Source: Strigops habroptila
Lineage: Eukaryota > Chordata > Aves > Psittaciformes > Psittacidae
Length of the DNA stretch: 64,000 bases
Reading direction: 5' to 3'
Assembly (NCBI RefSeq): GCF_004027225.2
Contig: NW_022651116.1
Span: 128,918-192,917, forward strand
A program made the position numbers and the translations under genes. The notes beneath the pieces were generated by a model. The model was not told the DNA's origin. It searched no databases and saw only the letters and a list, made by a program, of their open reading frames with translations. The number at the start of each line of letters is the position of its first letter. Within the stretch, counting starts at the first letter, position 1. Shown one piece after another: positions 420 to 56,868 of this stretch.

Positions 420-23991
<23,572 letters not shown>

Positions 23992-28715: not shown

Positions 28716-35908
<7,193 letters not shown>

Positions 35909-36050: not shown

Positions 36051-36509
36051 AGCTATTGGCAGCATCTCCCCCTGTCACTGCGTGGTGGCATATGGGGGGG
36101 TCACACACGGGGATCCCCCCCCCTCGCCCCGTTTCGGTTCCTTCCGGCCATGCCGGCGGCTCGGGGCGGGGCGGGGGGGGGGGGCAGGAAGCCCGATCTC
36201 CGCTTCCGTCCCCGCTATGGCGCTGGAGTCCATCCGGTACCGGCGCGGTTCCCTCTCGATCCTCAACCAGCTCCTGCTACCGGAGCAGCTCCGCTATGAG
36301 CGGGTGGACGGAGCGGAGCGCGCCTGGGAGGCCATCCACAGCATGGAGGTGACTTGTGGGGCAGAGGGGGGGGGACACACACACACGGGGACACCGGGGA
36401 CCCCCCCCCTCCCCGGACCCGGTTCCCCGAGCGCACCGCGCTGACACCGGCGGCGCCGCAGGTCCGGGGGAGCGCCGGCGATCGCCTTGGTCGGATGCTT
36501 GAGCCTGGC

Positions 36510-36620
36510 GCTGGAGCTGGCGGGCCGGTGCCGGGGCTGCCGGTGCCGGGATGCCGGTGCCGGGGCTGCCGGTTGCCGGGGCTGCCGGTGCCGGGGATGC
36601 CGGTGCCGGGGATGGGGTCG
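36510..36620 (+). repeat. Coding minisatellite inside MRI1 exon 2
   Basis: GGTGCCGGGGCTGCC and GGTGCCGGGATGCC repeats of 12-15 bases expand the exon between the LSLALELAG and VAALEAFVEQ blocks, adding a Gly/Ala-rich insert relative to the short AGAGG linker I recall in human. The frame changes within it. Confidence 0.75.
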
Positions 36621-36834
36621 CGGCGTTGGAAGCCTTCGTGGAGCAGCGCCTTCGGTTCCTGCTCACGGCGCGACCCACCGCGGTCAACCTGCACCGTGAG
36701 GCCGAGCGGCTCCGGGAGCGCCTGCGGGAATGGAGCCGGAGCCCCGGGATCACCGCCGGCGGGCTGCGAGAGCGGTACGGGCGCGGCGGGGGGTGGCGGG
36801 GGTGCCCCGTGGGGTGTTGGGGTGCTGGGGGGGT

Positions 36835-37915
36835 GTATTGGGGTGCTGAGGGGGGTATTGAGGTGTTGGGGGGTGTTGGGGTGTGAGGGGGATACTGGGG
36901 TGCTGAGGGGGATAGTGGGGTGCTGAGGGGGGTAGTGGGGTGCTAGGGGTCCTGGATGTGGTATTGGGGTGCTGGGGGGGGTAGTGGGGTGCTGGGGAGG
37001 TGTTTAGGGTGCCGGGGGGGGCAGTGGGGTGCGGGGGGGTGTTGGGTGCTGGGGGGTGCTGGGGTGCCGAGGGGGTATTGGGGTGCTGGGGGGTATTTGG
37101 GGTGCTGGGGGTGGGATTTTGGGGTGCTGGGGGGGTATTTGGGTGCTGGGGGGTATTTGGGTGCTGGGGGGGTAGTAGGGTCCGAGCGGGTATTGGGGTG
37201 CTATGGGGGGTGTTGGGGTGCTGGGGGGGGTAGTGGGGTGCTGAGGGTGTATTGGGGTGCCGGGGGGTGTACTGGGGTGCTGGGGGGTATTGGGGTGCTG
37301 AGGGGGGTATTGGGGTGCTGGAGGGGGTAGTGGGGTGCCAGGGGGATAGTGGGGTGCTGAGGGTGTATTGGGGGTGCTGGGGGTGTACTGGGGTGCTGGG
37401 GGGTATTGGGTGCTGAGGGGGGTATTGGGGTGCTGGAGGGGTAGTGGGGTGCCAGGGGATAGTGGGGTGCTGAGGGTGTATTGGGGTGCTGGGGGGGTAT
37501 TGGGATGCCGAGGGGGGTATTGGGTGCTGGGGGGGTAGGGGGGTGCCAGGGGGATAGTGGGGTGCTGGGGGTCCTGGGGGTGGTATTGGGGTGCTGGGGG
37601 GGTAGTGGGGTGCTGGGGGGCGTTGGGGTGCTGGGGGGTATTGGGGTGCTGAGGGGTAGTAGGGTGCCGAGGGGTGTTGGGGTGCTGGGGGTGCTGGGGT
37701 GCCAAGGGGGTATTGGGGTGCTGGGGAGGGTATTTGGGTGCTGGGGGGGGTAGTGGGGTGCTGGGGGGTGTTGGCGTGCTGGGGGTAGTGTTGGGGTGCT
37801 GGGGGTGATAGTGGGGTGCTGGGGGGTGGTGGGGTGCTGGTGGGGTATTGGGGTGCTGAGGGAGGTAGTGGGGTGCTGGGGGGGGTATTGGGGTGCTGGG
37901 GGGGGTGTTTGCTAC
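36835..37915. repeat. GGGGTGCTGGGGGGTATT minisatellite in MRI1 intron 2
   Basis: Units of 16-20 bases (TGGGGTGCTGGGGGGTATT), nearly 1.1 kb, G-rich on the sense strand. Confidence 0.94.
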
Positions 37916-38394
37916 CCAGGTTCATCCCCCCCCAGCATCATCGAGCACATCGAGGGGCTCTTGGCCAAGGACCGGGCGGACAACGAGAGCATCGGGGCTC
38001 ACGGAGCCCAGGACATCCTGCGCCGCGTCCCCGCCGGCGTCCCCGTCACCATCCTCACCCACTGCAACACCGGCAGCCTGGCCACGGCCGGCTACGGCAC
38101 CGCGCTCGGTGGGACCCCGACCCCCCCGAGCCCCCCCCAGCACCCCAAATCCCACCCACCACCCCCCCCCCCCCCCCCGCTGACCGCAGCACCCCGTTGC
38201 CTGCCGCAGGCATCGTGCGGGCGCTGCACGGGCAGGGCCGGCTGCGGCGGGTGCTGTGCACCGAGACCCGGCCCTACAACCAGGGCAGCCGCCTCACGGC
38301 CTTCGAGCTGCTCCACGACAACATCCCCGCCACCCTCATCGCCGACAGCGCCGCCGCCGCCGCCATGAGGGACTGCGGCGTCGATGGTGAGAGC

Positions 38395-38950
38395 CGGGAG
38401 GGAGCGCGGTGGGGATGGGATGGGGATGGCAGCGGGAGGGGATGGGGATGGGGCTGGCAACGGGATGGGGATGGCAACGGGGTGCGGATGGAGTTGGGAT
38501 GGGGATGGAGCTGGGATGGGGATGGGCATGGAGCTGGGATGGGGATGGCAGCGGGATGGGGATGGCAATGGGGTGGGGATGGAGCTGGGATGGGGATGGC
38601 AGCGGGATGGGGATGGCAATGAGGTGGGGATGGAGCTGGGATGGGGATGGCAATGGGAAGGGGATGGCACCAGGATGGGGATGGCAGCGGGATGGGGATG
38701 GAGTTGGGATGGGGATGGGGCTGTCAGCGGGATGGGGATGGGAGCTGGGATAGGGATGGGATGGGGATGGCAGTGGGATTGGGGATGGAGTGGGGATGGG
38801 GATGGAGTGGGGATGGGGATGGAGCTGGAATGGGGATTGGGATGGAGCTGGGATGGGGGATGGGGATGGCAACGGGATGGGGGTGGAGCCGGGATGGGAA
38901 TGGCACCGGGATAGGGATGGAGCTGGGATAGGGATGGAGCCGAGCCGGGG
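38395..38950. repeat. GATGGGGATGG repeat in MRI1 intron 4
   Basis: GGGATGGGGATGGCA and GATGGAGCTGGGATGGG units between exons 4 and 5. Confidence 0.92.
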
Positions 38951-39284
38951 CTGGTGCCGGGCCGGGCACACACACACTGACCGTCCCCTGGCCCCCCCCC
39001 GCAGCCGTGGTGGTGGGAGCCGACCGCCGTGGCGCCCAACGGGGACACGGCCAACAAGATCGGGACGTACCAGCTGGCGGTGGCCGCGCGGCACCACCGC
39101 GTCCCCTTCTACGTGGCGGCGCCGAGCTCGTCCTGCGACCCCGCGGTGCCGAGCGGGACCCACATCCCCATCGAGGAGCGGCCGGGCCGGGAGCTCACCC
39201 ACCTGCAGGGGGCTCTGCCTGGCCCCCCCCGGTGCGGTGCCCCACAGGCTGCTCATGGGCCCGGGGGGCCGTATGGGGCAGGGG

Positions 39285-40435
39285 GTTCCCATATAGGGCA
39301 GGGGGTCCCATATAGAGCAGGAGATCCCATATAGGGCAGGGTCCCATATAGGGCAGGGGGTCCCGTATAGGGCAGGGGGTCCCGTATAGGGAGAAGGGTC
39401 TTCTATAGGGCAGGGGTCCCGTATAGGGCAGGGGATCTTTTATAGGGCAGGGTGTCCTGTATAGGGCAGGAGGTCCCGTATAGCACAGGAGATCCCATAT
39501 AGGGCGGGGGGTCCCATATAGAGCAGGAGATCCCATATAGGGCAGAGGGTCTTGTATAGGGCAGGGGCTCCCGTATAGGGCAGGAGGTCCCGTATAGGGC
39601 AGGGGATCCCATATAGGGCAGGAGATCCCATATAGGGCACGGGGCCCCATATAGGGCAGGGGGTCCCGTATAGGGCAGGGGGTCCCGTATAGGGCAGGAG
39701 GTCCCGTATAGGGGAGGGGGTCCCATGTGTGGCTGGAGGGAGTCCTATATGGAATGGAGAGGTCCCGTATGGAGCAGAGGGTCCCATATAGGGCAGGGGG
39801 CTCCCCTATGGGTTTGGAGGGGTCCCACATGGAGTGAGGATCCCATAGGGGTTAGGGTCCTATATGAGACACGGGTGTTCCACGTGGCTTGGGGGTGTCC
39901 CCATTGCCCCCTGGGGGGTCTTATATGGGTTCCTATATAGGGTAGAGAGTCCCATGTGGGGCAGAGGGTCCCATATGAGGTGGGTAGGTCCTATATGGGG
40001 TATGGGGGGTCCTATATAGGGCAGGAGGGGTCCCATATAGGGCATGGGGGGTCCCATATAGGGCACGGGGGGGTCCCATATAGGGCGGGGGGTTCCATAT
40101 ATGGCACAGAGGGTCCCATATAGGGCACGGGGGGTCCCATATGCGGCACAGAGGGTCCCATATAGGGCACAGAGGGTCCCATATAGGGCACGGGGAGTCC
40201 TATATAGGGCACCGGGGGTTCCATGTAGGGCACGGGGGGTCCCATATAGGGCATAGGGGGTCCCATATAGGGCATGGTGGGTCCCATATAGGGCACGGGG
40301 GTCCCATATAGGGCAGGAGGGTGCCCATATAGGGCACGGGGGGGGTCCATATAGGGCAGGAGGGTGCCCATATAGGGCACGGGGGGGGTCCATATAGGGC
40401 AGGGGAGTCCCATATAGGGCACCGGGGGGCGGGGG
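39285..40435. repeat. CCCATATAGGGCA minisatellite in MRI1 intron 5
   Basis: Units of 17-19 bases (GGTCCCATATAGGGCAGGGG), about 60 copies, ending shortly before the last MRI1 exon. Each unit contains the palindrome-like CATATAG. Confidence 0.94.
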
Positions 40436-40729
40436 GTCCCACCTCCCCTCCCCCCCTCCCCCGTGACGCCGTTTCCCGCCATCTCCAGGTATCGACGTGT
40501 GGAACCCGGCGTTTGACGTCACGCCGCATGACCTCATCACGGGCGGCGTCGTCACCGAGTGGGGGGTGGTGCCCGCGAGCGACGTGCGCCGGGCGCTGGC
40601 GGAGCGCGCGGCCGCCGGGGGGCAGTAAAGCGCCTCCGCGTCCCGCCTCTATCCCATCGTGCCTTGCGCCGCCGCCGCCGCGCCTCTCTAGGCCCCGCCG
40701 TGCCGGAACCCGGAAGCGGCGGCGGCAGC

Positions 40730-41232
40730 ATGGCGCAGGGCAGGCCCAAGTCGGCGCCAAAGCGGCCCCGGAAGGCGGCGGCGGCGGCGGCGGCGGGAAC
40801 CGGGGCGCGGGGGCTGCGGAAGGGAGGTGAGACCGGGGGGGGGGGGAGTTGGGTTGGGTCTTATTGGGGTGTGGGGGGGGGATGGTCCCACCGACCCTTT
40901 ACCCCCCCCCCCCCAGGCCGCGCCATCGCGCCCAAGAAGCTCCACGTGATCCGGCAGCAGAAGCTGAAGAAGGTGAAGGGGGGGACAGGATATGGGGGGG
41001 CGGGGGAGGGGATGGGGCCAATGTGCCCCCCCCCCACCCCCCCAAATCTGACCCTTCCCTCCCCCCCCCCCCGCAGCGGCTCGAGGTCGGGATCCGCGCG
41101 CGGATCGAGCGGGACGCGCTGCAGCGCGCGAGCGCCGGCCCCCCCCCGCGGCTCGCGCTCCTCACCCCGCCCCCCGCCGCCTCTCAGCGCCCCGCCCCCC
41201 CCAAGGGCAAGGCCAAGAAGAGGCGGGGCTAA
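40730..41232 (+). CDS. C19orf53: C19orf53 homologue (leydig cell tumour 10 kDa protein-like)
   Basis: Small basic protein of 102 residues, function poorly known. Exons 40730-40826, 40917-40972 and 41077-41232 join in phase. Readable: MAQGRPKSAPKRPRK, an Ala run, KGGRAIAPKKLHVIRQQKLK, then RLEVGIRARIERDALQRASA and LALLTPPPA, ending KAKKRRG. The IAPKK, QQKLKK and EVGIR blocks match the UPF0390 family. Only 101 bases separate it from the MRI1 stop, so the two genes share a very tight head-to-tail junction. The Ala7 run is a GCG repeat. Confidence 0.92.
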
Positions 41233-41272
41233 ACCCCAACTCCCCCCCCCCTCCCCCGCGGTTAATTGTCTT

Positions 41273-41278
41273 AATAAA
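41273..41278 (+). terminator. C19orf53 poly(A) signal AATAAA
   Basis: AATAAA 40 bases after the stop codon. Confidence 0.85.
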
Positions 41279-41410
41279 GGCATTTTGGGGGGGACACACA
41301 CACACCCCCTTCTCCTTCTAAGGTGACGTTGTGGTGACGGCAGGAGGGCCCCGGGTGTGGGGAGGGGGGTTTTGGGGCCGCTCCTTTCCCGCTCCGTTCA
41401 TGCGGCCCCC

Positions 41411-41665
41411 GCGGAAGTGTTATGAATGGGTGGGAAAAAAAAAGCTCCCTAAGGCTCCGCCTCCTCGGCGCTGATTGGCTGCGGCAGCTGCCGCGCGCGG
41501 CGCGCCCCGCCCCTCGCAGTGATTGACGCGCAGCGGAAGTTTTATGAATGGGTGGGAAAAAAACTACCCCCGAGGCTCCGCCCCCCTCGGTGCTGATTGG
41601 CTGCGGCGCGCCCTGCCCTCCCAGTGATTGACGCGCGGCGGGGGCTGAGCTGTGATTGGCTCAAG
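41411..41665. promoter_or_regulatory. Duplicated CpG promoter-like module with inverted CCAAT boxes
   Basis: A module of 110-120 bases occurs twice (41411-41531 and 41532-41640): GCGGAAGT (ETS), TTATGAATGGGTGGGAAAAA, GGCTCCGCC, CTGATTGGCTGCGG, AGTGATTGACGCGC. A third ATTGGCT follows at about 41655. It sits where human ZSWIM4 would begin, but no ZSWIM4 coding sequence follows. It could equally serve an unannotated transcript in either direction. Confidence 0.55.
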
Positions 41666-41823
41666 GCTCCCGCTGGGGGGGGGGAGTCTGGAGGGAAGCT
41701 CTTAAAGGGGCCGCGTCTCGTTGTGTTATTGGGGGAAGGGGGGGCGGGACACGTGGGCAACCCCCCCGCGGGTGGGCGGATCTTGTTGGGGCGGTGCCGA
41801 AGCTCCTCCCCCACCGATGACGT

Positions 41824-41838
41824 CAGGGAAATTCCCTG
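41824..41838. promoter_or_regulatory. Perfect palindromic kappaB-like site
   Basis: CAGGGAAATTCCCTG is a 15-base perfect palindrome containing GGGAAATTCC, which fits the NF-kappaB consensus. Confidence 0.5.
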
Positions 41839-41887
41839 GAATCCGGGTTATTTTGGGAAACAAACAGGGAAAAACGGAAAAAGGCTC

Positions 41888-41893
41888 TTTATT
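41888..41893 (-). terminator. Candidate poly(A) signal for the minus-strand pri-microRNA
   Basis: TTTATT on plus, AATAAA on minus, about 950 bases downstream of the miR-24-2 hairpin. No other minus-strand gene precedes it. Confidence 0.4.
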
Positions 41894-42139
41894 GGGGGGG
41901 GGGGAGGGGCGTTAAACCCCCCCCACGTGACCCCCATCCTCCCCCCTTCCTCCCCCCCCCCCCCATTGCCATTGGTTCCAGCCGGGTTGGTTTTGGGGGA
42001 GTCCCAGCCCTGTGTATGTGTTGGGGGCCCCCCCCCCCCCCCAATTTGGGGCCCCCCAACGGTGGGTTCGGGGCGTCGCTGCTGTGGAAGAACCTGCGGG
42101 TCCCGGTGAGCTCAGTCCGACAGCGGGACCCGGGCAGGG

Positions 42140-42815
42140 CTCCACCACGGGGGGGTTGCGGACCCCAATGGGGGGATTTGGGGTCCGGGGGGGGTGGTTT
42201 AGGGGTCCGGAGGGGGGGTGCCTGGGGTCCTGGGGGGGGGTTTTGGGGTCCTGGAGGGGACTTTGAGGTCCTGGGAGGGGAATTGGGGACCCCAATGGGG
42301 GGTTTGTGGTCCCGGGGAGTGGTTTAGGGTCCGGGGGAAGGATTTTGGGGTCCCCAATGGGTGTTTTTGGGGTCCTGGAGGGGGTTTCGGGGACTCCAAT
42401 ATGGGGGGTGGTAATCCCAATGGGGGTTTTTAGAGTCCTGGAGGGGGGTTTTGGGGTCCTGGGGGAGGAATTGGGGACCCCAGTGGGGGTTTTTGAGTCC
42501 TGGAGGGGGAATTGGGGACCCTAACGGGGGTTTTTGGGTCCTGGAGGGGGAATTGGGGACCCTAACGGGGGTTTTTGGGTCCTGGAGGGGGTTTTGGGGA
42601 CCCCAATGGGGACTTTTGGGGTCTTGGAGGGGACTTTGAGGTCCTGGGGGGCGAATTGGGGTCCCTACTGGAGGTTTTTGGGCTCCTGGAGGGGGAATTG
42701 GACTCCTGGAGGGGGGTTTGGGGACCCCAAAGGGAGTTTTTGGGGTCATGGGGGGGGTTTTGGGGACCTCAATGGGGGTTTTTGGGGGTCCTGGGGGGGG
42801 TTTTGGGGACCCCGG
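42140..42815. repeat. GGGGACCCCAATGGGGG minisatellite
   Basis: Units of 30-45 bases (GGGTCCTGGAGGGG, GGGGACCCCAATGGGGGTTT) running up to 20 bases from the miR-24-2 precursor. Confidence 0.93.
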
Positions 42816-42836
42816 CAGCCACCAGCGCTCAGCCCA

Positions 42837-42912
42837 GACTCCTGTTCCTGCTGAACTGAGCCAGTTTAACCAAAGCAACTGCAAATCAGCTCAGTAGGCA
42901 CAGGAGGCAGCG
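42837..42912 (-). ncRNA. MIR24-2: mir-24-2 precursor
   Basis: The mature 3p arm is at 42842-42863 on minus (begins TGGCTCAGTT, ends GGAACAG). The 5p arm at about 42879-42900 begins TGCCTACTGAGCTGA and pairs with it. The loop is GCAGTTGCTTTGGTTAAA-like. Confidence 0.96.
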
Positions 42913-42999
42913 CCCGGGGGGGGCCCCGTGGCCTTGGGGGGGGGATCCCGGTGTCCTGGGGGGGGGATCCCGGTGTCCTGGGGGGGGATCCCGGTGTCC

Positions 43000-43072
43000 G
43001 GGGAGCGGAACTTAGCCACTGTGAACACGACCCGATGCCAACGCTGTTCACATGTGGGCTAAGCCCTACCCC
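43000..43072 (-). ncRNA. MIR27A: mir-27a precursor
   Basis: The mature 3p arm is at 43005-43025 on minus (begins TTCACAGTGG, ends GTTCCGC). The 5p arm near 43046-43067 begins AGGGCTTAGC. The bases preceding the 3p arm (GTCGT) also match mammalian mir-27a. Confidence 0.96.
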
Positions 43073-43162
43073 ACGGCGCCGGCTGCGGCGTGTCCCGGTG
43101 TTCCCGGTGTTCCCGGTGTGTCCCGGTGTGTCCCGGTGTTCCCGGCGGTGGCGGGTGCTGGC

Positions 43163-43238
43163 GCCCGTTGGAAATCCCTGGCAATGTGATTTTGGGCAGA
43201 AACGGTAAAAAATCGCATCGCCAGGAACCCCGGTGAGC
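43163..43238 (-). ncRNA. MIR23A: mir-23a precursor
   Basis: The mature 3p arm is at 43170-43190 on minus (begins ATCACATTGC, ends GGATTTCC). The 5p arm at about 43210-43231 reads GGGGTTCCTGGCGATGCGAT and pairs with it. Confidence 0.96.
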
Positions 43239-43319
43239 GGCAGCGGGGGGGGAGCGGGGGGGTACCGGGACCCCCCCACACACAGACCGGTGGCGGTGGT
43301 GGGTCAGGCTGGGTCAGTG

Positions 43320-44140
43320 CTCACAGGGGCTGTGGGGCACGGACACACATGGACACACATGGACACACATGGACATACATGGACATAGGGGTACATGGGG
43401 GCAGACGGACACACATGGACACACATGGACATAGGGACACACATGGACATAGGGACACACATGGACATACATGGACATAGGGATACATGGGGACACGGAC
43501 ACACATGGACACACATGGACACACATAGACATAGGGATACACATGGACATAGGGATACATGGACATACATGGACATAGGGACACACATGGACATAGGGAC
43601 ACACATGGACATACATGGACATAGGGGTACATGGGGGCAGACAAGACAGATACCCCTGGACATAGGGACATGGACACATGGACACACACATGGACACATG
43701 CAGACACACATGGACACAGGCACACACGTGGACACATACACAGACACGGGCACACACAGATGGACACACACGGACACGCATGGACACAGGCACACACAGA
43801 CACACGGGGACACACACGGACACACATGGACACATACAGATGGACACAGGCACACACACACAGGCACACGGACACACATGGACACACACATGGACACACA
43901 TGGACACACACACGGACACAGGTGCACACACACACACGGACACACACATGGACACACACATGGACATGGATACACACACACGGACACACACACACACACG
44001 GACACACACATGGACACGGACACACACACACGGACACACACACGGACACACATGGACATGGACACGCACACACAGACACACACACAGACACACGGACACA
44101 CACATGGACACGGACACACACACACGGACACACACGCGGG
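43320..44140. repeat. ACACACATGGACAC minisatellite
   Basis: Units of 10-12 bases (ACACATGGACACAC) with two longer duplicated blocks (43330-43470, 43560-43640). Alternating purine-pyrimidine over 800 bases; potential Z-DNA. Minus-strand frames reading CVCVCVS are artefacts. Confidence 0.93.
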
Positions 44141-44530
44141 CACCGCCCCGGTGCGGGCGCGCGAGGCTGACTCATGGCGCGGGCACGTGCCAGCACCGGC
44201 CGGTGCCATCGGCGCCGCCACGTGAGAGCCGGGACGTGCCCGGGCACGGCCGGGGGGGGCTGAGCCAGGGGCGCCAGGACCCCCCGGGGATGCGGCTGTG
44301 GGGCGGCTGTGGGGCAGCCGTGGGGCAGCCGTGGGGTCAAAGCTCCGGCGGTGCCGGTGCCAGGCCCCCCGTGTCCCCGTGGATGTGGCCATGGGGTGGC
44401 CGTGGGGCAGCCATAGGGCACCGTGGGGCTCGGTATCCCCAGCCAGGCAGCGGATGTGGGTGTCGAGGCTCTGGTGGTGGCACCGTGTCCCCCTGGTGCC
44501 AGTGCCAGGACCCCCGTGTCCTTATGGATG
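44141..44530. other. Intergenic stretch, no gene seen
   Basis: GC-rich with AP-1/MARE-like GCTGACTCA at 44167-44175 and CGTGGGGCAGCC repeats. Possible upstream regulatory DNA of the minus-strand microRNA cluster, unproven. Confidence 0.4.
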
Positions 44531-45140
44531 TGGCCATAGGGCAGCCATAGGGCACAATAGAGCACTATGGGGCAGCCATGGGGTACAAGAATGCACCATG
44601 GGGCAGCCATAGGGCACCATGGGGCAGCCATAGGGTACATTAGGGCACAATGGGGCACCATAGAGTACCACGGGGCAGCCCTAGGGCACCATGCAGCAGC
44701 CATAGGGTATTATAGGGTGCCATGGGGCACCATGCAGCAGCCATAGGGCAGCCATAGGGCACCATGGGGCACCCATAGGGCACCATGCAGCAGCCATGGG
44801 GCAGCTATAGGGCACCATAGGGCACCATGGGGCACCATAGAGCAGCCACAGGGCACCATGGGGCACCCATAGGGCGCCATGGGGCAGCCATAGAGCAGCC
44901 ATGGGGCACCATAGGGCGCCATGGGGCACCCATAGGGCACCATGCAGCAGCCATGGGGCAGCTATAGGGCACCATGGGGCACCATAGAGCAGCCATAGGA
45001 CACCATAGAGCAGCCACAGGGCACCATTGGGCACCCATAGGGCAGCCATAGGGCACCATGGGGCAGCCATAGGGCGCCATGGGGCAGCCATAGAGCAGCC
45101 ATGGGGCGCCATGGGGCAGCCATAGAGCAGCCATGGGGAG
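44530..45140. repeat. CCATAGGGCACCATGGGGCA minisatellite
   Basis: Units of 10-11 bases (CCATAGGGCA, CCATGGGGCA) combined in longer blocks. Confidence 0.94.
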
Positions 45141-45910
45141 CAGCCGCCGCCGCCGCCGCCGGCGGTGGGTGAGTTCCTGGAAGCAGCGTGTAATGGGGCC
45201 GGGGCCGTCGGGCGCCATGTGGGAGCCGCCGAGGCCCCGCCCCGGCCGTGACATCACGGTCTCCACGGCAACGGGGCAACTTCAAAGGGATTCGGGTGGA
45301 AAAGGACCAAGAAAATCTGGATCAACAGCGGCGGCGGCGGCGGCATCAACACAGCGGCCGGTGCCAACGGGGCGGCGGCGCCGAGTCCACCCGAGCGGAC
45401 CCGAGCAGGACCCGAGCGGTGCCGAGTCCACCCGAGCGGTGCCGACAAGACCCGAGCGGGGCGGGACGGGGGGTCCCCGGCGCCCCCCCCCCCCCTTGGC
45501 CGCTGCCCAAGCGGGAGCCGCCGGCGGGGCCGGGGCGTTGCCGGTTGGGCCGCACCGACCGGCTCCTATGGGGCGGAGGCGCCGCTGTGGGGCTGGCCCC
45601 CCCCCCCCCCCCCCCGCCGTTGTATGTGTGGGGCAGCGCGGGGGGACACGAGGCGCCGGCGGGGCCGCCGCGGTGCCGGTGCCAAGGCGGAGGCGGGGGC
45701 CGGGAGGGGCCGCCCCGTCCGCGCCCGTCGGCACACGCAGCGCCGGGGGGAAAGGATGAATCACCGCGGCGGCACCAACGCCCCGGCCGGGACGGGACGG
45801 GGGGGGGGACGGGGGGAACACGGACCCGAAACCCCTCCGGAACCGTTCGAAACGGCGCTTCGGGACAAGGCGGCGGCGGGACCCCGCGTCCGCCCCTTCG
45901 AGAGCCTCGG
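45135..45910. promoter_or_regulatory. CpG island, possible pri-microRNA promoter
   Basis: GCCGCC repeats, a CRE-like TGACATCA (45249-45256) and an RFX X-box-like GTCTCCACGGCAAC (45259-45272). It lies 1.9 kb upstream of mir-23a on the transcribed strand. No coding exon recognised in 45300-45910. Confidence 0.35.
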
Positions 45911-46575
45911 GTTCGGTGCCTTTCGGTACCGCTCGGAGGGGTTCGGGGCCTTTCGGCACCGCTCGGAGCGGTTCGGCACCGCTCGGAGGGGTTCGGGGCC
46001 CTTAAGTACCGCTCGGAGCGGTTCGGCACCGCTCTGAGGGGTTCGGTGCCTTCCGGTACCGTTCGGAGGGGTTCGGTACCCCTGGGAGCGGTTCGGTGCC
46101 TTTCCGTACCGCTCGGTGCCCTTCGGTGCCGCTCGGAGGGGTTCGGCACCGCTCGGAGCGGGTCGGGGCCTTTCGGTACCGCTCGGAGTGGTACGGCGCC
46201 CCTCGGAGCGGTCCGGCGCCCCTCGGAGCGATTCGGTGCCTTTCGGTACCGCCCGAAGGGGTTCAGTGCCCTTCGGTACCGCTCGGAGCGATTCGGGGCC
46301 TTTCGGTACCGCTCGAAGGGGTTCAGTGCCCTTCCGTACCGCTCGGTGCCCTTCCGTACCGCTCGGAGCGATTCGGGGCCTTTCGGTACCACTCGGAGTG
46401 GTCCTGCACCGCTCGAAGGGGTTAGGCGCCCCTCGGTGCCCTTCGGTACCACTCGGAGCGGTTCGGCGCCCCTCGGAGCGGTTCGGTGCCCTTCGGTACC
46501 ACTCGGAGCGGTTCGGCGCCCCCCGAAGGGGTTCGGTGCCTTTCGGTACCACTCGGAGCGGTTCGGCACCCCTCG
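45910..46575. repeat. GGTTCGGTGCCTTTCGGTAC minisatellite
   Basis: Units near 30 bases (CGCTCGGAGCGGTTCGG, TGCCTTTCGGTACC), CpG-rich, about 22 copies; open in many frames. The CpG density suggests this array could be methylation-sensitive. Confidence 0.94.
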
Positions 46576-46955
46576 ACGTGCAGCCCAGCCCAGCCCAGCC
46601 CAGCCCTGCCCTGCCCGGTCCGGCCGAGCCGAGCCGAGCGGAGCCGAACCCCGTCCCTCGCGGGCCCGGTCCGTACTCACCGGAGCGGCGGCGAGGGGGG
46701 GGTGGGGGGGGGCGGGCGCGGCCCCGGGGCGGCGGCGGCGCGCGCGGAGTCACCGACTTTTACTCCAAGAAGGGAAAATCCTTTTTAAACGCTTCGCCCC
46801 GCCCCGGAGGCCGCGGAACGGGGGGGGGGGGGAGGCGAGGGGAGGGGAGGGGCCTGCGCGCCCGGCGCCGCCGCCGCCGCCGCGCACCCGGCCGGGGCTG
46901 CCCCACGGCGGAGGGCGGGAGAGACACCCCCCCCCCACACACACACACATACCCC
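46576..46955. other. CpG-rich spacer, no gene seen
   Basis: CAGCC repeats, then GC-rich DNA with one AT-rich patch CCTTTTTAAACGC at about 46780. A TATA-like reading on minus is possible but unsupported. Confidence 0.35.
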
Positions 46956-49275
46956 GCCCCATGGCAATGGGGCGCTGCCCCATAGCGAGGGCGCTGTGTG
47001 ACCCATAGCGAGGGGGCTGCTTGTGCCCCATGGGGTGAGGCTGTGTGACCCCCATGGCAGTGGGGCTCAGTGCCCCATAGCGAGGGCACTATGTGCCCCA
47101 TAACAAGGGGACTTATTGCTCATGGCAGTGGGGCTCGGTGCCCCATGGCAAAGGGGCTCATTGCCTCATAGTGAGGGCAGTATGTGCCCCATAGCAAGGG
47201 GGCTCCATGTGCCCCATGGGGTGAGGCTGTGTGACCCCCATGGCAGTGGGGCTCGGTGCCCCATAGCAAGGGCGCTGTGAGACCCGTAGCAAGGGCGCTG
47301 TGTGACCCATGGCAATGGGGTTTAGTGCCCCATGGTGAGGGGGCTCATTGCCCCATAGCGAGGGCACTATGTGCCCCATAACAAGGGGACTTATTGCTCA
47401 TGGAAGTGGGGCTCGGTGCCCCATGGCAAAGAGGCTCATTGCCTCATAGTGAGGGCAGTATGTGCCCCATAGCAAGGGGGCTCCATGTGCCCCATGGGGT
47501 GAGGCTGTGTGACCCCCATGGCAGTGGGGCTTGGTGCCCCATAGCAAGGGGACTTATTGCTCATGGCAGTGGGGCTCATTGCCCCATAGTGAGGGCACTA
47601 TGTGGCCCATAGCAAGGGGGCTCAGTGCCCAAAGCAATGGGGCTTAGTGCCCCATGGTGAGGGGGATCATTGCCCCATAGCAAGGGCACTATGTGCCCCA
47701 TAGCAAGGGGACTCATTGCTCATGGCAGCGGGGATCGGTGCCCCATGGCAAAGGGGCTCATTGCCCCATAGTGAGGGCACTGTGAGACCCATAGCGAGGG
47801 GGCTCCGTGTGCCCCATGGGATGAGGGTGCGTGACCCCCACGGCAGTGGGGCTCAGTGCCCCATAGCGAGGGCACTGTGAGATCCATAGCGAGGGCGCCG
47901 TGTGACCCATGGCGAGGGCACTGTGAGACCCATGGCAAGGGCGCTGTGTGAGCCATGGCAATGGGGTTTAGTGCCCCATGGTGAGGGGGCTCATTGCCCC
48001 ATAGCAAGGGCACTATGTGCCCCATGGCAAGGGGACTCATTGCTCATGGCAGTGGGGCTCAGTGCCCCATGGCAAAGGGGCTCATTGCCCCATAGCGAGG
48101 GCACTGTGAGACCCATAGCGAGGGGGCTCCGTGTGCCACATGGGGTGAGGCTGCGTGACCCCCATGGCAGTGGGGCTCGGTGCCCCATAGCGAGGGCACT
48201 ATGTGGCCCATAGCAAAGGGGCTCAGTGCCCAAAGCAATGGGGCTTAGTGCCCCATGGTGAGGGGGATCATTGCCCCATAGCAAGGGCACTATGTGCCCC
48301 ATGGCAAGGGGACTCATTGCTCATGGCAGCGGGGATCGGTGCCCCATGGCAAAGGGGCTCATTGCCCCATAGTGAGGGCACTATGTGCCCCATAGCAAGG
48401 GGACTTATTGCTCATAGCAGCGGGGATCGGTGCCCCATAGCGAGGGCACTGTGAGACCCATAGTGAGGGGGCTCTGTGTGCCACATGGGGTGAGGCTGCG
48501 TGACCCCCATGGCAGTGGGGCTCGGTGCCCCATGGCAAAGGGGCTCATTGCCCCATAGCAAGGGCACTGTGAGACCCATAGTGAGGGGGCTCCGTGTGCC
48601 TCATGGGATGAGGCTGTATGACCCCCATGGCAATGGGGCGCTGCCCCATAGCGAGGGCGCTGTGTGACCCATAGCGAGGGCGCTGCCGCATAGCGAGGGC
48701 GCTGTGAGACCCATGGCAATGGGGTTTAGTGCCCCATGGTGAGGGGGCTCATTACCCCATAGCAAGGGCACTATGTGCCCCATGGCAAGGGGACTCATTG
48801 CTCATGGCAGTGGGGCTCAGTGCCCCATGGCAAAGGGGCTCATTGCCCTATAGTGAGGGCACTATATGCCCCTTAGCAAGGGGACTTACTGCTTGTGACC
48901 CATGGCGTGAGGCTGCGTGACCCCCATGGCAGTGGGGCGCTGCCCTATGGGGTGAGGCTGTGTGACCCCCATGGCAGTGGGGCTCGGTGCCCCATAGCAA
49001 GGGGACTCATCGCCCCATAGTGAGGGCACTATGTGCCCCATAGCAAAGGGGCTCAGTGCCCAAAGCAATGGGGCTTAGTGCCCCATGGTGAGGGGGCTCA
49101 TTGCCCCATAGCAAGGGCACTATATGCCCCATAGCAAGGGGGCTCTGTGTGCCCCACGGCAATGCCCCCTGGCGAGGGCACTATGTACCCCATAGCAAGG
49201 GGACTCATTGCTCATGGCAGTGGGGCTCAGTGCCCCATAGCGAGGGCGCTGTGTGCCCCACAGCAAGGGGACTGC
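46955..49275. repeat. 2.3-kb GCCCCATAGCAAGGG satellite with higher-order structure
   Basis: Basic unit near 23 bases (GTGCCCCATAGCGAGGGCAC), organised in super-repeats of roughly 300-400 bases. For example, the TTGCTCATGGCAGTGGGGCT segment recurs near 47110, 47390, 47560, 47730, 48030, 48320, 48800 and 49210. It is the largest array in the window. Confidence 0.95.
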
Positions 49276-49440
49276 GCGCCCCATAGCGCCGCCCCGCGCC
49301 CCATAGCGCCGCCCCGTGCCTCAGTTTCCCGCCGTCTCCATGGCGACGCCGCACACACACATTAAACACGGGATCGCGTCGGAAGTGGGTGAAACCGCAG
49401 CGCGTCACCGGGGGCGCTGCCGCCGGCCCCGGCCCCACAC
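49276..49440. other. Short unique spacer
   Basis: Contains TTTCCCGCC (E2F-like) and CCATGGCGAC. No gene recognised. Confidence 0.4.
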
Positions 49441-50295
49441 ATCCCCCCCGCCCCACAGCGCGGCCCTGACCCATAGCACAGCCCTGCCCCATAGCGCACC
49501 CCTGACCCACAGCGCAGCCCTGCCCCATAGTGCACCCCTGCCCGATAGCAAACCCACAGCCCCACAGCGCAGCCCTGCCCCACAGCGCACCCCTGCCCCA
49601 TAGCGCACCCCTGCCCCACAGCACAGCCCTGACCCATAGCGCACCCCTGCCCCACAGCGCACCCCAGCCCCACAGCACAGCCCTGCCCCACAGCGCAGCC
49701 GTGCCCCACAGCGCACCCCTGCCCCACAGCGCAGCCCTGACCCATAGCGCAGCCGTGCCTCACAGCGCAGCCCTGACCCATAGTGCAGCTGTGCCCCACA
49801 GCGCACCCCTGCCCCACAGCGCGGCCCTGCCCCATAGCACGGCCCTGCCCCATAGCGCACCCCTGCCCCACAGCGCAGCCCTGCCCCACAGCAAACCCAC
49901 AGCCCCATAGCACAGCCCTGCCGCACAGCACACCCTGCCCCATAGCAAACCCCCAGCCCCATAGCGCACCCCTGCCCCATAGCACACCCTGCCCCATAGC
50001 GCAGCCCTGCCCCATAGTGCACCTCTGCCCCATAGCACACCCCACAGCCCCATAGCACACCCCTGCCCCATAGCACACTGCAGCCCCATAGCACACCCCT
50101 GCCCCATAGTGCATCCCAGCCCCATAGCACACCCCTGCCCCATAGCGCACCCCTGCCCCATAGCGCACCCCAGCCCCATAGCACACCCCTGCCCCATAGC
50201 GCACCCCTGCCCCATAGCGCACCCCAGCCCCATAGCACACCCCTGCCCCATAGCGCACCCCACAGCCCCATAACACACCGCAGCCCCACACATGG
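49440..50295. repeat. 21-base CCTGCCCCATAGCGCACC minisatellite
   Basis: About 40 units of 20-21 bases (GCGCACCCCTGCCCCATA), related in wording (CCCCATAGC) to the 46.9-49.3 kb array, so the two may share an origin. Confidence 0.95.
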
Positions 50296-50870
50296 GGAGG
50301 AACCGCGCGCTGTGGGTCCGGTGGGACCCGGCCCCGCTCTCCCGGGGTTAACGCCCCCCCCCCCGGTGGAAGGTCCCAAATGCAACCCCCGGGGGGGGGG
50401 GGCGGAACCCGGTGCCCCCCCCCCCAAGTACCCCCATGGTGCCCCCCAAGCCCCCCCACATCTGGCACCGGCCCCACATCTGGGCACGAAACACGCGTGT
50501 GCGGCCGGCCACGCGTGTGGCTGCACACACGGAGCACACGCCACGCACATGCCCTACGGAGCCCCCGCCCCGGGGCAGCACATGCTTGCACACGCGTGTG
50601 CGCACCCGCCCGGGCCCAGCACACGCTTGCACACGCGTGTGCTCTGCGCCGCGCACAGACGTGTCCTTTCTAGGCAATGGCCGCGCCGGGGCCACATTCC
50701 ACACGCCTGAGTCAGCCCCGGCCCCGCCGCCGCCGCTGCACACGTGTGGCACCGCATGCACACGTGTGGCACCGCCTGGCGTTGCATGACATGGCATGAC
50801 ATAGCATGACGTGGCGTGACCTGGCTGGGAACAAGGGGGAGGAGGAGCTGGGGGTCAGGGTTGGGGGTCA
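50296..50870. other. Spacer with alternating CACGCGTGTG segments
   Basis: Recurring ACACGCGTGTGC-type palindromes (50488-50650), Z-DNA-prone, an AP-1 site TGAGTCA at 50708-50714, and a short CATGACATGG repeat at 50785-50825. No coding exon recognised. Confidence 0.5.
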
Positions 50871-52065
50871 CGCTGGGGGTCTATGGGTCTCTGTGGGTCA
50901 CTGTGGGTCTCTGGGTGGCACTGTGGGTCACTATAGGTGTCTGTGGGTCTCAGTGGGTCCCGCTGTGGGTTGTTGTGGGTCCTGCCGTGGGTGTCAGTGG
51001 GTCTCAGTAGGTCTCAGTGGGTCGCTGTGGGTCTCAGTGGGTTGCTGTCGGTCTCTGTGGGTCACTATGGGTCCTGCTGTGGGTCGCTGTGGGTCTCAGT
51101 GGGTCACTATGGGTCTCAGTGGGTCGCACTGTGGGTCTCAGTGGCTCTCAGTGGGTCGCTATGGGTCCCGCTGTGGGTCTCAGTGGGTCGCTGTTGCTCT
51201 CAGTGGGTCACTTTGGGTCCTGCTGTGGGTCCCAGTGGGTTGCTCTGGGTCGCTGTGGGTCTCATTGAGTCACTGTGGGTCACTATGGGTCTCGCTGTGG
51301 GTCACTATGGGTCCCGCTGTGGCTCTCAGTGGGTCGTTGTGGGTCACTATGGGTCCCGCTGTGGCTCTCAGTGGGTCGTTGTGGGTCACTATGGGTCCCG
51401 CTGTGGCTCTCAGTGAGTCGCTGTGGGTCACTATGGGTCCCGCTGTGGGTCCGAGTGGGTTGCTCTGGGTCCCTCTGTGGGTCTCACTGAGTCGCTGTGG
51501 GTCTCAGTGGGTCCCGTTGTGGCTCCCAGTGGGTTGCTATGGGTCGCTATGGGTCCCGCTGTGGGTCTCGGTGGGTCGCTGTGGGTCTCAGTGGGACGCT
51601 ACGGGTCTCAGTGGGTCGCTATGGGTCACACTGTGGGTCGCTATGGGTCCTGCTGTGGGTCTCATTGAGTCACTGTGGGTCTCAGTGGCTCCCTGTGGGT
51701 CTCAGTGGGACGCTACGGGTCTCAGTGGGTCGCTATGGGTCACACTGTGGGTCGCTATGGGTCCTGCTGTGGGTCCCGCTGTGGGTCTCATTGAGTCACT
51801 GTGGGTCACTGTGGGTCTCAGTGGCTCCCAGTGGGTCACTGTGGGTCCCGCTGTGGGTCTCAGTGGTCAGTGGGTCGCTGTGGGTCGCTGTGGGTCGCGC
51901 TGTGGGTCTCAGTGGGTCGCTGTGGGTCCCGCTGTGGGTCTCAGTGGTCAGTGGGTCGCTATGGGTCCCGCTGTGGGTCTCAGTGGGTCGCTATGGGTCC
52001 CGCTGTGGGTCCCGCTGTGGGTCTCAGTGGCTCCCAGTGGGTCGCTGTGGGTCGCGCTGTGGGTC
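50870..52065. repeat. GTCGCTGTGGGTCTCAGTGG minisatellite
   Basis: About 60 units near 20 bases (GGGTCTCAGTGGGTCGCTGT, GGGTCCCGCTGTG). Ends abruptly at GCGTGCCTTCGTTGCCGG. Confidence 0.95.
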
Positions 52066-52260
52066 CCTGCGTGCCTTCGTTGCCGGGCGCCGCTGTTTGT
52101 GTGGGGCTGACTCAGGCCGTGACTCACCGGCAGCACCGGGCGGGTCCCCCCCCCACATCCCCCCCCCCCCCGCGCCGGGTGTCCCCGGGGGGGGTGTCCC
52201 CCATGGCCCCCCCCCCCCCCCCGAGCGGCCTCGTGCCCATGAGTCACCGCGGGGGGGCCC

Positions 52261-53113
52261 CGGGGCGGCTCCCGGCCCCGCCATAACCCATGTCGTGACA
52301 TGTCGTGACGTAGCCGGGCGGCGTGACGTCATGTCGAGCCGCGTGACGTCGCGCCGCGCTTTGTGACGCCGCTGCCGCGCCGTCTGACGTCACGCCGCGC
52401 GTGGTTCTCACTCCCCCCCCCCCCGGCACCGCAGGGGTTAACCGCCGGCCCCCACGCTGGCCAATGGGAGGCGGCGGGGCGGTGACCAATGAGGGGGCGT
52501 GCACAGCGCTGCAGGTAGCCAATGGGAAGCGGCGGGGCGGTGACCAATGAGGGGGCGTGCACAGCGCCGCAGGTAGCCAATGAGAGCCGGCGGGGCGGTC
52601 CCTAACAGGGGGGCGGGCACAGCGCCGCAGGCAGCCAATGAGAGCGAGCGGGGCGGCGCTTGCAGCCAATGGGCGGAGCCGCAAGCCAAGGGGCGGAGCC
52701 GCTGCCCTGAGCTGACCCGCGGCTGCCAACCCCCCCCCCGGGAACGGCGCCGTCGGGTCCGTTCAACGCCAAAATCCCCCGTTTTCCCCCCAAAACCACG
52801 CTCCCCCCCACCCCCCCGGCGCCGTTTCACCCCAACCGCGGCCGCTTTAACCGCGGGGGCTCCGCTGGGGGCCGCCCCGACGTGCTTTAGCACGTGTGAA
52901 AACGCGCGTTTCCCGTTCCAACGCGTTTTAACCCTAAAAACAGCGTCTGGCGCCGCCGCGGCGCCGGGGGACGGGATCGGGGCGGGGGGGGGGGGGGTCC
53001 GGGGGGGGTGGGACGGGGGGAAGCGGCTCCGTCGCCGCGGCGGGGGCCGTTCCCGGCGGTTCCCGGCGGCTGCAGGCGACGCCCGGCGGCACGTGGCGGC
53101 GCTTCCCGGCGGG
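52261..53113 (+). promoter_or_regulatory. NANOS3 CpG promoter with CRE cluster and CCAAT minisatellite
   Basis: CRE motifs: TGACGTCA at 52324-52331 and 52385-52392, half-sites TGACGTAG (52306) and TGACGTCG (52344). Then 60-base repeats carry seven CCAAT boxes at 52461, 52486, 52519, 52544, 52577, 52635 and 52666, alternating with GGCGGGGCGG GC boxes. This pattern predicts NF-Y/Sp1 and CREB/CREM input. The start site is probably between 52700 and 53100. Confidence 0.7.
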
Positions 53114-53461
53114 ATGGAGCCGGGACGGCGGGAATTCGACATGTGGCGGGATTACCTGGGGCTGGCGGCCGTGGTGGCCGCGCTGCGGCGCGGGGCCGAG
53201 GCACCGGGAGCACCGGGAGCACCGAGCGGCGGCTGCACCTTCTGCAAGCACAACGGGGAAGCGAAGCAGGTCTACAGCGGGCACCGGCTGCGGGACGCGG
53301 CGGGCCGGGTGCTGTGCCCGGTGCTGCGGAGCTACGTGTGCCCGCAGTGCGGCGCCACCCAGGAGCGGGCGCACACCCGCCGCTTCTGCCCCCTCACCCG
53401 CCGCGGTTACGCCTCCGTTTACAGCCGGCCCGGCCGCGGGCCCCGCCGCAGCGACCACTGA
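53114..53461 (+). CDS. NANOS3: NANOS3, germline RNA-binding zinc-finger protein
   Basis: Nanos proteins repress target mRNAs with Pumilio and CCR4-NOT and protect primordial germ cells. The 115-residue frame begins [18 protein letters not shown]; the FDxWxDYLGLA block resembles the mammalian N-terminus, so this ATG is favoured over the internal one at 53141. Two CCHC fingers are intact: C-x2-C-x12-H-x10-C ([15 protein letters not shown]) and C-x2-C-x7-H-x4-C ([17 protein letters not shown]). The tail is short ([13 protein letters not shown]) compared with human. A GT-AG intron (53482-53558) seems to lie in the 3' untranslated region. AATAAA at 53762-53767 is the poly(A) signal. Confidence 0.95.
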
Positions 53462-53481
53462 GCGGCAGCACCGGCGCCGAG

Positions 53482-53558
53482 GTAACGGCGGCGGCCCCCG
53501 GGGGGGGAGCGGGATTCCCGCTGCATGGATGAGCCTCTCGCCCTCTTGTCTCTTCCAG
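53482..53558 (+). other. NANOS3 3' untranslated intron
   Basis: GCCGAG|GTAACG donor and CTCTTGTCTCTTCCAG acceptor, 77 bases, 20 bases after the stop codon; short enough after the stop not to trigger nonsense-mediated decay. Confidence 0.7.
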
Positions 53559-53714
53559 GACGGCGCTTCCCACGGCCGGCAGAGCCCCCTTCCTGACGGC
53601 GGGAGCCCGGCGTGGCTGGAACGGCGCTGGACGCCGGGGCTGGGCGGTGGGACCGGCCCCCGGGGGGGTGGGACCGGCCCCCGGTTGGGTTCGGTTGTGT
53701 TTTGGGGCGGTTTG

Positions 53715-55917
53715 TTACGTTCTGGCACACGGTTTATTGTCCGTCCGAGCCCCGGCCCGGTAATAAACGGGCTCCCCGGGGCTGCCCCGTTCCACCGGCT
53801 CCAGCCGCCTCCTGCCCGGGTTCGGTGGCCCCGGGCGCCGGCTCCGCCGCGGCTTCGGCCTCCTCAGCGCCTCCAGGCCCCGGTGGGCGCCCATGGCCAA
53901 GCGGCTGGTGGGGGGGGCACCGCGTCAGCCCCCGGCCCGGCCCCGCATCCCGGCCCAAATCCCTTGGGAAAAGCCTTACTTGAGGTCCGAGAGCTCCCGG
54001 ATGAGGCCGCAGATGATGGGGGTCGCGTCCTCCCTGTGGGGCACATGGGGGGGCTGTCGCCATTCCCGCTCTTCCAGGCGCCGGGAACACGGAGCAGCCC
54101 CCGGGACACCCACCTCGGGGCCTCTTCGGAGCGGTGCCGGGTGTCCTGTGGGACAACGGGGAATGGGTTGGGATGGAGGTGGCTCCGAGCCGTGCCCTTG
54201 GGCACTGCCGGGGAGGGGGAATGAGCCGGGGTCCCCCCTGCTCCGAGCCCGGCGGGTTATTCCCGCTTTTCCCGGTGATTTCCACTAGATCGGGGCAGTT
54301 CTGGGGGTTATTCCATGGGCAGGTGGGTGCTGCCACGGATTTACCTGGCGCTGTGGCGGCAGCTCCAGGGTGCTCCCTTCCTGGGGCTCATCCCGGGGCT
54401 CCTTCAGCTCATCCCGGGGCTCATCCCGGGGCTCATCCCGGGGCTCCTGCAGCTCATCCCGAGGCTCATCCCGGGGCTCCTCCTGCAGCTCATCCCGGGG
54501 CTCATCCCGGGGCTCCTGCAGCTCATCCCGGGGCTCATCCCGAGGCTCATCCCGGGGCTCCTGCACCTCATCCCGGGGCTCATCCTGAGGCTCCTCCCGG
54601 GGCTCCTGCAGCTCATCCCGGCGCTCCTTCTGCAGCTCATCCGGATACTCATCCCGGGGCTTACCCTGGGGCTCCTGCAGCTCATCCCGGGGCTCATCCC
54701 GGGGCTCATCCCGGGGCTCCTTCTGCAGCTCATCCGGATGCTCACCCCAGGGCTCCTGCAGCTCATCCCGGGGCTCATCCCGGGGCTCATCCCGGGGCTC
54801 CTTCTGCAGCTCATCCGGATGCTCACCCCGGGGCTCCTGCAGCTCACCCCGGGGCTCATCCCGGGGCTCCTGCTGAGGCTCATCCCGAGGCTCCTGCAGC
54901 TCATCCCGGGGCTCATCCCAATACTCACCCCGGGGCTTACCCTGGGGCTCCTGCAGCTCATCCTGGGGCTCATCCCGATGCTCATGCCGAGGCTCCTGCA
55001 GCTCATCCCGGGGCTCATCCTGATGCTCGTCCCGTGGCTCCTGCAGCTCATCCCGATGCTCATCCTGTGGCTCCTCCCAAGCCTCATCCCGGGGCTCCTC
55101 CCGGGGCTCACCCTGGGGCTCCGGCAGCTCATCCCGATGCTCATCCTGAGGCTCATCCCAAGCCTCATCCCGATGCTCATCCCGAGGCTCCTTCAGCTCA
55201 TCCCGGGGCTCATCCCGAGGCTTACCCTGAGGCTCCTGCAGCTCATCCCGCAGCTCATCCCGATGCTCATCCCGGAGCTCATCCCGCGGCTCCTGCAGCT
55301 CCTCCCGCTGCTCCTCCCGGGGCCCGTCCCCGCCACCCGCAGCGGAGCCCGCGGGGGGCGGTCCCGGCGCGGTCTCCTCCTGCTCGGTGCCGCGGTCCAG
55401 CTCCGCGCTGCCCCCGGGCCACGGCGCCCGCGTCCCCGCCTGCTCCCGGCGCTGCTCCGCGCTGCGAAGCCGACATCCCCCCCTTCACACCGGCCCCGGC
55501 GCTGCCCCCCGGGCCCGGCCCCGGCCCCGGCCCCGTCACCTCCTCCCCGCGGCCGCCGCTTGTCCCGGGGACGGAGCCTCCTCCTCTCCCGGCGGCTTCT
55601 GCTTCGCTTTGGGGACGTGGAGTCCGGCGGCCGCTGCTCGGGAGGGGGGGAAGTGTTTTTGGGGGGCTCTTTAGCCCCAATTCCCGGGGTCCCCCCCACC
55701 CCGAAACCCGCGGGGGGGGGGGGGGGGCGGGTTCAGCGCTTTAACGGGGCTCGCACGGAGCCGGTACCGGGGACACCGGGGGGGGGGGTGTTTGTCACCG
55801 CAAACGGGCTCGTTCCCCGTCGGCTTTAAAGGCGTTTGTTTGAAGCCGTCGTGGTGTGAATGGAGGCACCGACCCGGACCCGGTACCTGCCGCCGGCTCC
55901 TTCTTCCTCTTGCCCAT
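53715..55917 (-). CDS. BRME1: BRME1 (C19orf57), meiotic recombination factor with a pentad-repeat middle
   Basis: In mammals BRME1 binds HSF2BP (which binds BRCA2) and helps load RAD51/DMC1 in meiosis. Six coding exons: 55887-55917 ([10 protein letters not shown]), 55540-55606, 54345-55461, 54114-54145, 53980-54033, 53715-53904; they join in phase to 496 residues. The assignment rests on the KRKK start, the C-terminal [20 protein letters not shown] block, which resembles the human C-terminus as I recall it, and synteny. The 1117-base exon is a degenerate array of DEPRDE/DELQEP units. The acceptor of exon 2 (CCCCAAAG) is weak, so the second exon is the least certain. The stop at 53715-53717 lies just past a poly(A) signal. 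Confidence 0.82.
53733..53767. terminator. Convergent poly(A) signals of NANOS3 and BRME1
   Basis: Minus-strand AATAAA (TTTATT at 53733-53738) and plus-strand AATAAA (53762-53767) lie 23 bases apart. The minus signal sits inside the last BRME1 codons. The two transcripts must overlap tail to tail. Confidence 0.7.
54390..55310 (-). repeat. Coding minisatellite of 15-base units in BRME1
   Basis: About sixty degenerate units of GAGCCCCGGGAT (EPRD) and GAGCTGCAG (ELQ) keep one minus-strand frame open for 372 codons. Other frames across the array are also fairly open, but only this one connects in phase to conserved exons on both sides. The product is dominated by Glu, Asp, Arg, Pro, Leu and Gln. 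Confidence 0.88.
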
Positions 55918-56365
55918 GGCCTGAGGGGGGAGAACGCGATGAGCGCTAATGGCCGTCACCGCGGCCATCAAGGGGCCATTAACGGAGCTATTAAGGGGCC
56001 ATTCGCCGCCGCCTCCCTCGCCCCGGAGCCGGCGCCGGGGCCGGGTCACCATCGCCAGGCGCCAACGCGCCGGTTCCGAGGTGGGAACAGCGGCGTTTGA
56101 GCCGGTTTTGTCCCGTTTTCACCCGTTTTCACCCGTTTTTCGCCCGCCCCCCCCGTCGGGGCAGGCGCCATCTTGCCGCCTCACCTCAGGGTTTCCCGCC
56201 TTTTTTCGCCGCGCGGGGCACGCTGGGAGTTGTAGTCTTCACACCCCTCTCCCCCCACGGGAGGAGCCGTCGAGCGAAGCCGTGCTGCAATAACGACAGC
56301 GGCTTTCGCGACGGCGGCGCACGTAAAGCGCGGCGGGTTGTTGACAGCGGCTGGAGAAGGAAGTG
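55918..56365. promoter_or_regulatory. Bidirectional CpG promoter of BRME1 and CC2D1A
   Basis: The intergenic region between divergent genes holds a YY1-type GCCATCTTG (56167-56175), a ZNF143/SBF-type CTGGGAGTTGTAGT (56223-56236; reverse ACTACAACTCCCAG) and TTTCCCGCC. GGAGAAGGAA|GTGAGC near 56362 looks like the donor of a CC2D1A non-coding first exon. Confidence 0.65.
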
Positions 56366-56765: not shown

Positions 56766-56868
56766 ATCGGGCCCGGGCGGGGGGGGTGGATGATCCATCC
56801 CATTCCCTGTGGGAAGCGGCTCCGGGGCGGGGGGGGGGGGGGGATGAGCCCTGCCCGTGCTCCCGCAG

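Follow-up and report, generated by a model that had tools for sequence, protein, structure and literature searches.

The window analysed here is a stretch of 64,000 bases of Strigops habroptila DNA (C88:128918-192917), and on its minus strand it carries three microRNA hairpins, mir-24, mir-27 and mir-23, which were the only three matches at or above the gathering score when the whole window was scanned with Rfam 15 cmscan (Table 1). Read along the minus strand their order is 23, 27, 24, and their span is 401 bases, within the approximately 1 kb taken as the criterion for a cluster. An earlier sequence-only reading had placed a cluster with this conserved order and strand here, and the Rfam matches agree with it; its location was right while its coordinates were one base off.

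The cluster lies among protein-coding genes in the order CACNA1A, YJU2-family gene, MRI1, C19orf53, cluster, NANOS3 and CC2D1A. The CACNA1A exon at 6472-6675, compared with solved structures, matched the P/Q-type alpha-1A channel best (130.6 bits, against 121.7 bits for the N-type). From its position the YJU2-family gene is presumably YJU2B/CCDC130. The first MRI1 piece (36214-36354) matched PDB 4ldq with 48 bits, and the joined C19orf53 pieces matched PDB 8fla (69.6 bits) and PF09495 (57.7 bits). A search with the NANOS3 protein left 206 of 329 candidates as relatives, at E of 0.001 or less. Among the 120 of these 206 that were listed the best-scoring one other than the protein itself is NANOS3 of Amazona collaria, a parrot (identity 80%, over 90% of the length), next comes Melopsittacus (70% over 91%), several non-parrots have equal or higher identity, and a few waders and others reach 82-85%, but over only about 59%. 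We take human 19p13, the home of MIR23A/MIR27A/MIR24-2, to have the same gene order, and therefore the cluster is very probably the ortholog of these genes. The conserved synteny proposed earlier is thus borne out by MRI1, C19orf53 and NANOS3 flanking the cluster, if the human order is as given.

Table 1. Features of the window (positions in the 64,000 bases) and the evidence for each.
Feature	Position	Strand	Evidence and remarks
CACNA1A exons (voltage-gated calcium channel)	1943-23865	minus	exon translations recognised by eye
YJU2-family gene	30522-33765	plus	PF04502 pieces from three reading frames; one of the three exceeds its cut-off
MRI1 (methylthioribose-1-phosphate isomerase)	36214-40574	plus	PF01008 pieces, two above cut-off, one just below
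C19orf53 ortholog (Leydig cell tumor 10 kDa protein homolog)	40730-41229	plus	three exon pieces
Candidate poly(A) signal AATAAA	41888-41893	minus	only AATAAA/ATTAAA on minus strand in 38000-42838
Tandem arrays downstream of mir-24-2	42149-42813		TRF, periods 20/41/62
mir-24-2 hairpin	42839-42908	minus	RF00178, 80.8 bits, cut-off 50, E 1.3e-17
miR-24 mature 3p	42842-42863	minus	letters exact
Tandem array in 27a-24-2 spacer	42916-43003		TRF, periods 21/22; spacer 92% masked
mir-27a hairpin	42998-43076	minus	RF00644, 73.0 bits, cut-off 48.5, E 1.4e-14
miR-27a mature 3p	43005-43025	minus	letters identical to a-type
Tandem array in 23a-27a spacer	43086-43150		TRF, periods 9/28; spacer 76% masked
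mir-23a hairpin	43162-43239	minus	RF00642, 62.7 bits, cut-off 52, E 1.2e-11
miR-23a mature 3p	43170-43190	minus	letters identical to a-type
Tandem arrays upstream of mir-23a	43341-44143		TRF; starting 101 bases from hairpin
Candidate promoter and first exon of primary transcript	46675-46960	minus	inferred from pattern scan
Splice-donor-like CGGTGAGT	46675-46682	minus	pattern scan
TTTAAAA	46783-46789	minus	pattern scan
GC boxes of candidate promoter	46797-46805, 46952-46960	minus	pattern scan
NANOS3	53114-53461	plus	PF05741, 82.7 bits
CC2D1A, gene start only	59602-61475	plus	PF21528 (DM14) pieces, each below cut-off

Mature letters, folding and the paralogous cluster

The sequence-only reading had claimed an exact a-type match for all three 3p arms. 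This holds for miR-23 and miR-27, from which the b-type letters differ by one base each and whose a-type 3' ends are ...GGGATTTCC and ...AAGTTCCGC, in a comparison with reference mature strings. For miR-24 the match is exact but says nothing about type: the a and b copies found in this genome have identical 3p arms, and the 5p arm of the copy described here has almost equal numbers of mismatches to human 24-1 (five) and human 24-2 (four), so that miR-24 is not diagnostic for a versus b and the name 24-2 rests on position, not on sequence. Folding of the precursors, which the same reading had proposed, came out in its favour: all three form stable hairpins with both arms paired, at -33.3 kcal/mol for mir-23a (z -4.60), -40.2 kcal/mol for mir-27a (z -4.05) and -33.2 kcal/mol for mir-24-2 (z -4.81), and in each case none of 200 dinucleotide shuffles was as stable. 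A CNNC motif at about +16 to +19 follows 23a and 27a and does not follow 24-2, which is weak evidence either way because the surrounding DNA is C-rich, and a UG at -14 is present in the b copy of 23 only.

Searches of the genome (1,148,577,936 bases in 89 contigs) with RF00642, RF00644 and RF00178 each gave at least two places over the cut-off, the present locus and one near 58.82 Mb on C26, a contig of 102 Mb; these copy counts are lower bounds, with 60, 59 and 62 first-look candidates scored, respectively. The other rows of these searches (1, 1 and 2) are weaker opposite-strand matches of the same hairpins, and the same three models gave no matches in 14 control genomes. The cluster on C26 shares the three families and their order with the cluster described here but differs from it in its letters, which are b-type, and in its span (837 against 401 bases), GC content and tandem repeat content. 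Its hairpins agree with those of the a-type cluster in 53 of 79, 51 of 79 and 60 of 72 columns. The 10 kb around it have 39.5% GC and 1.2% tandem repeat, and tandem repeats make up 2.5% of the 3 kb around mir-23b, compared with 60%, at 63% GC, around the a-type mir-23. We also note that the b-type miR-27 of this genome (L007:4762-4840, on C26) ends in ...AAGTTCTAC; human 27b presumably ends in ...AAGTTCTGC.

Tandem repeats around and between the hairpins

Tandem Repeats Finder (TRF) masked 58% of the window. The arrays come to within 25, 7, 9, 11 and 101 bases of the hairpin ends that they face, apart from one overlap, in which array 42916-43003 covers 6 bases of the mir-27 model past the mature end, with one base between. 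The masked bases within the hairpins are 0, 6 and 0, the six being those of mir-27, and the earlier description of the cluster as lying inside minisatellite DNA is correct for flanks and spacers and incorrect for the hairpins themselves. Locally recurring 10-mers give the same picture, as they cover 0.00, 0.03 and 0.00 of the 24, 27 and 23 hairpins and 0.71 and 0.66 of the spacers, while in the b cluster they cover at most 0.05 of spacers and flanks and 0.14 of the mir-23b hairpin.

It could be argued that the layout around the hairpins consists of chance gaps in repeat-rich DNA, and we consider this unlikely. Sparing of the hairpins alone is indeed not rare and not significant, since rotating the mask spares them equally in 9,096 of 64,000 cases (14%), and the array edges move with the TRF settings. 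With two of three extra settings the hairpins are no less free; the loosest setting takes 12 bases of the mir-27 hairpin, including five of the mature arm, and one base of mir-23 into an array. When free hairpins and full spacers are required jointly, with thresholds chosen post hoc after inspection of the data, only 10 of 62,999 placements along the window show the layout, and all are at the true place (within 9 bases of it). Also against chance, and likewise noticed post hoc, is the motif CCCGGTGT, which has eight plus-strand copies in the window, all eight of them in the two spacers beside mir-27a; in the opposite orientation it occurs twice elsewhere in the window.

Several other candidates were discarded. 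Copying of hairpin pieces into the arrays (“hairpin stuttering”) was sought by blastn of hairpins and pre-miRNAs against the window, which returned self matches, the hairpins' own opposite arms and one further match of 16 bases (E 0.3-0.4). Among the matches listed only the flanks of mir-27a recur clearly in the window (E 1.9e-07 and 1.2e-04), and for the flank of mir-23 no recurrence was among the matches listed (best 60, flanked queries against the window). The observation that none of 2,781 coding bases is masked is biased, because the coding pieces came from a scan penalising masked DNA, and was not used. Three Pfam rows were rejected as low-complexity: Gag_p10, which was below cut-off, and YkpC (28.5 bits against a cut-off of 27.7, in one frame) and D-Glu_cyclase (26.8 bits against 25); in none of the three does a stretch pass alone.

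The layout resembles one already described in birds. Hron et al. 2026 (PMC12954441) report that avian dot chromosomes have lost many genes and show “sequence stuttering”, in which short imperfect local repeats fill introns, and intergenic DNA too, while exons are intact and paralogs elsewhere are free of them. By analogy with that account, what we see may be of the same kind: short local repeats fill the non-coding DNA of the window, functional sequence is intact and the paralogous cluster is almost free of such repeats. The difference is that stuttering is described there mainly for introns and here the repeats occupy the spacers of a microRNA cluster; the words “miRNA” and “microRNA” have 0 occurrences in the main text of that paper.

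Predicted expression, neighbours not found and possible genomic setting

The genes of this family are normally transcribed by RNA polymerase II as one transcript with three hairpins, which are cut by Drosha and Dicer, the 3p arms being the main products. In the present locus the polymerase would read the minus strand, and its CpG-rich start may be near 46.7-47 kb. Between the cluster and NANOS3 the DNA at 45001-47000 is rich in CpG, with an observed/expected ratio of 0.78-1.16, and a pattern scan there suggests a candidate promoter and first exon, together with a candidate poly(A) signal beyond mir-24-2 (Table 1). As pattern matches these transcript ends stay candidates; the same scan of the minus strand at 43.2-52.7 kb gave three more GC boxes and one more donor-like site. 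The promoter of the human cluster is described in a review as having no TATA box (PMC2940846). Drosha-DGCR8 would then excise the three hairpins in the order 23a, 27a, 24-2, Dicer would trim them, and the 3p arms would load into Argonaute, where the a-type arms probably share their targets for repression with the b-type paralogs. The three hairpins would be kept by selection, and the spacers and the DNA around the cluster would turn over in the form of local tandem repeats.

The RNAs are already named in published work on birds. A paper on the Pekin duck (PMC3900480) lists miR-23a as ATCACATTGCCAGGGATTTCCA, with 4,008, 5,680 and 7,679 reads; the matching was against all animals and tolerated two mismatches, and the sequence listed has the a-type 3' end. 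Such reads suggest that the a-type is expressed in a bird but are no proof of it. In chicken, gga-miR-27a is named in a table of a review (PMC8002044) and miR-23a in a study of muscle (PMC7324647), and a survey from 2006 which included chicken credits tetrapods with two clusters of this kind (PMC1388199). No paper mapping a bird a-type cluster was among the matches listed in the open literature.

The neighbours of the cluster in human 19p13 presumably also include ZSWIM4 and mir-181c/d. No mir-181 reached the gathering score in the window with Rfam cmscan, and no degenerate one was among 71 matches with E up to 5 in 40500-60000. In the genome, where 57 candidates were scored, four mir-181 loci were found as two pairs (C16 and C8); a third pair was not found, nor was any mir-181 found between the cluster and NANOS3 (window 43.3-53.1 kb), the presumed place of mir-181c/d in human. 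Weak microRNA names that piled up at 40964-41078, between two C19orf53 exon pieces, are all below cut-off and were set aside as chance matches to a GC-rich hairpin. For ZSWIM4 there was no Pfam match on the plus strand in 30.5-42.9, 44.1-57.0 and 57.3-61.2 kb, nor on the minus strand in 40.0-59.8 kb. The genome search for ZSWIM4-8_C gave six matches, on C26, C8, C25 and C5, and none on C88.

Full-length ZSWIM4-8_C matches in one open frame are found on C26, on C8 and, as a third, at C25:27708292-27708825. The one on C25 is possibly a ZSWIM4 relocated from the cluster locus.

A stretch which seems to lose or shed genes in this manner, mir-181c/d and ZSWIM4 being expected beside the cluster from the presumed human order, raises the question whether the cluster itself is a conserved but silent relic that lost its function recently, with the b-type cluster doing all miR-23/27/24 work. 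We regard this as very improbable, as each of the three 3p arms is perfect to the letter and every stem pairs in DNA with repeat-filled spacers, the hairpins of the a and b clusters differ elsewhere to the extent given above, and the duck miR-23a reads end in a-type letters, with the two mismatches allowed (PMC3900480).

The contig is small (241,945 bases) and GC-rich, and ten 10-kb pieces of it outside the window have GC of 0.59-0.69 and 15-54% tandem repeat. Its small size and its N runs, one of them directly after the window, are the points in favour of an artefact, a contig that is foreign or misjoined within the window, but this is scarcely credible, since the window itself is without N, its NANOS3 scores best against a parrot, the named rows P0002-P0066 among the relatives of this protein are all birds (five rows are without a name), and the gene order is presumably the ancestral one.

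Further along the contig, the ultraconserved element uc_338 (TUC338) was found at C88:209620-209806 with 164 bits. Its human counterpart is presumably in the PCBP2 region, on 12q13 rather than 19p13. Between the window and this element are two N runs of 500 and 65 bases, and contig C88 may therefore be a scaffold join.

C88 may be part of a dot chromosome. Losses of RNA families in birds were in many cases traced to unassembled microchromosomes by Gardner et al. 2015 (PMC4378963). The earlier suggestion that the a-type cluster had been hidden in unassembled DNA gains indirect support, as a GC- and repeat-rich contig of 242 kb is of the kind that older bird assemblies missed (PMC12954441). Since bird papers already name miR-23a and miR-27a, and two clusters in tetrapods were stated in 2006, “hidden” may be a better description of the locus than of the RNA.

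From these results we conclude, with high confidence, that the cluster is the bird ortholog of vertebrate MIR23A/MIR27A/MIR24-2 and very probably a working gene, whose hairpins are spared while its spacers probably turn over as tandem repeats. With the human genes at 19p13 it presumably shares the families, their order on a single strand, the a-type 3p arms of 23 and 27 and the neighbouring genes; unlike them it has repeat-filled spacers, and ZSWIM4 and mir-181c/d were not found at the locus. Worth attention are the fixed hairpins as against the repeat-filled spacers, and a cluster kept where mir-181c/d were not found. A more far-reaching proposal, which we make tentatively and would put at somewhat less than an even chance, is that dot-chromosome stuttering has spread into the spacers of a polycistron still at work, right up to the Drosha substrates (one array stops a single base short of the 3' end of mature miR-27a), so that spacing and basal flanks of a conserved cluster vary freely in birds, perhaps even between individuals, with the hairpins fixed and the mir-181c/d cluster next to it lost.

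The cluster is ordinary in kind and useful to bird catalogues. At least one bird retains the full a-type cluster, apparently at its ancestral place, in DNA which older assemblies tended to miss, and bird microRNA catalogues with the b-type only would then be incomplete and not evidence of loss. Should the b-type cluster be linked to Z, as we take it to be in chicken, the a-type cluster would supply a second dose from a different contig that is probably autosomal, a point of relevance to work on sex-biased miR-23/27/24. Spacers filled with repeats may also serve as a natural test of how important spacing and basal flanks in a polycistron are for Drosha processing.
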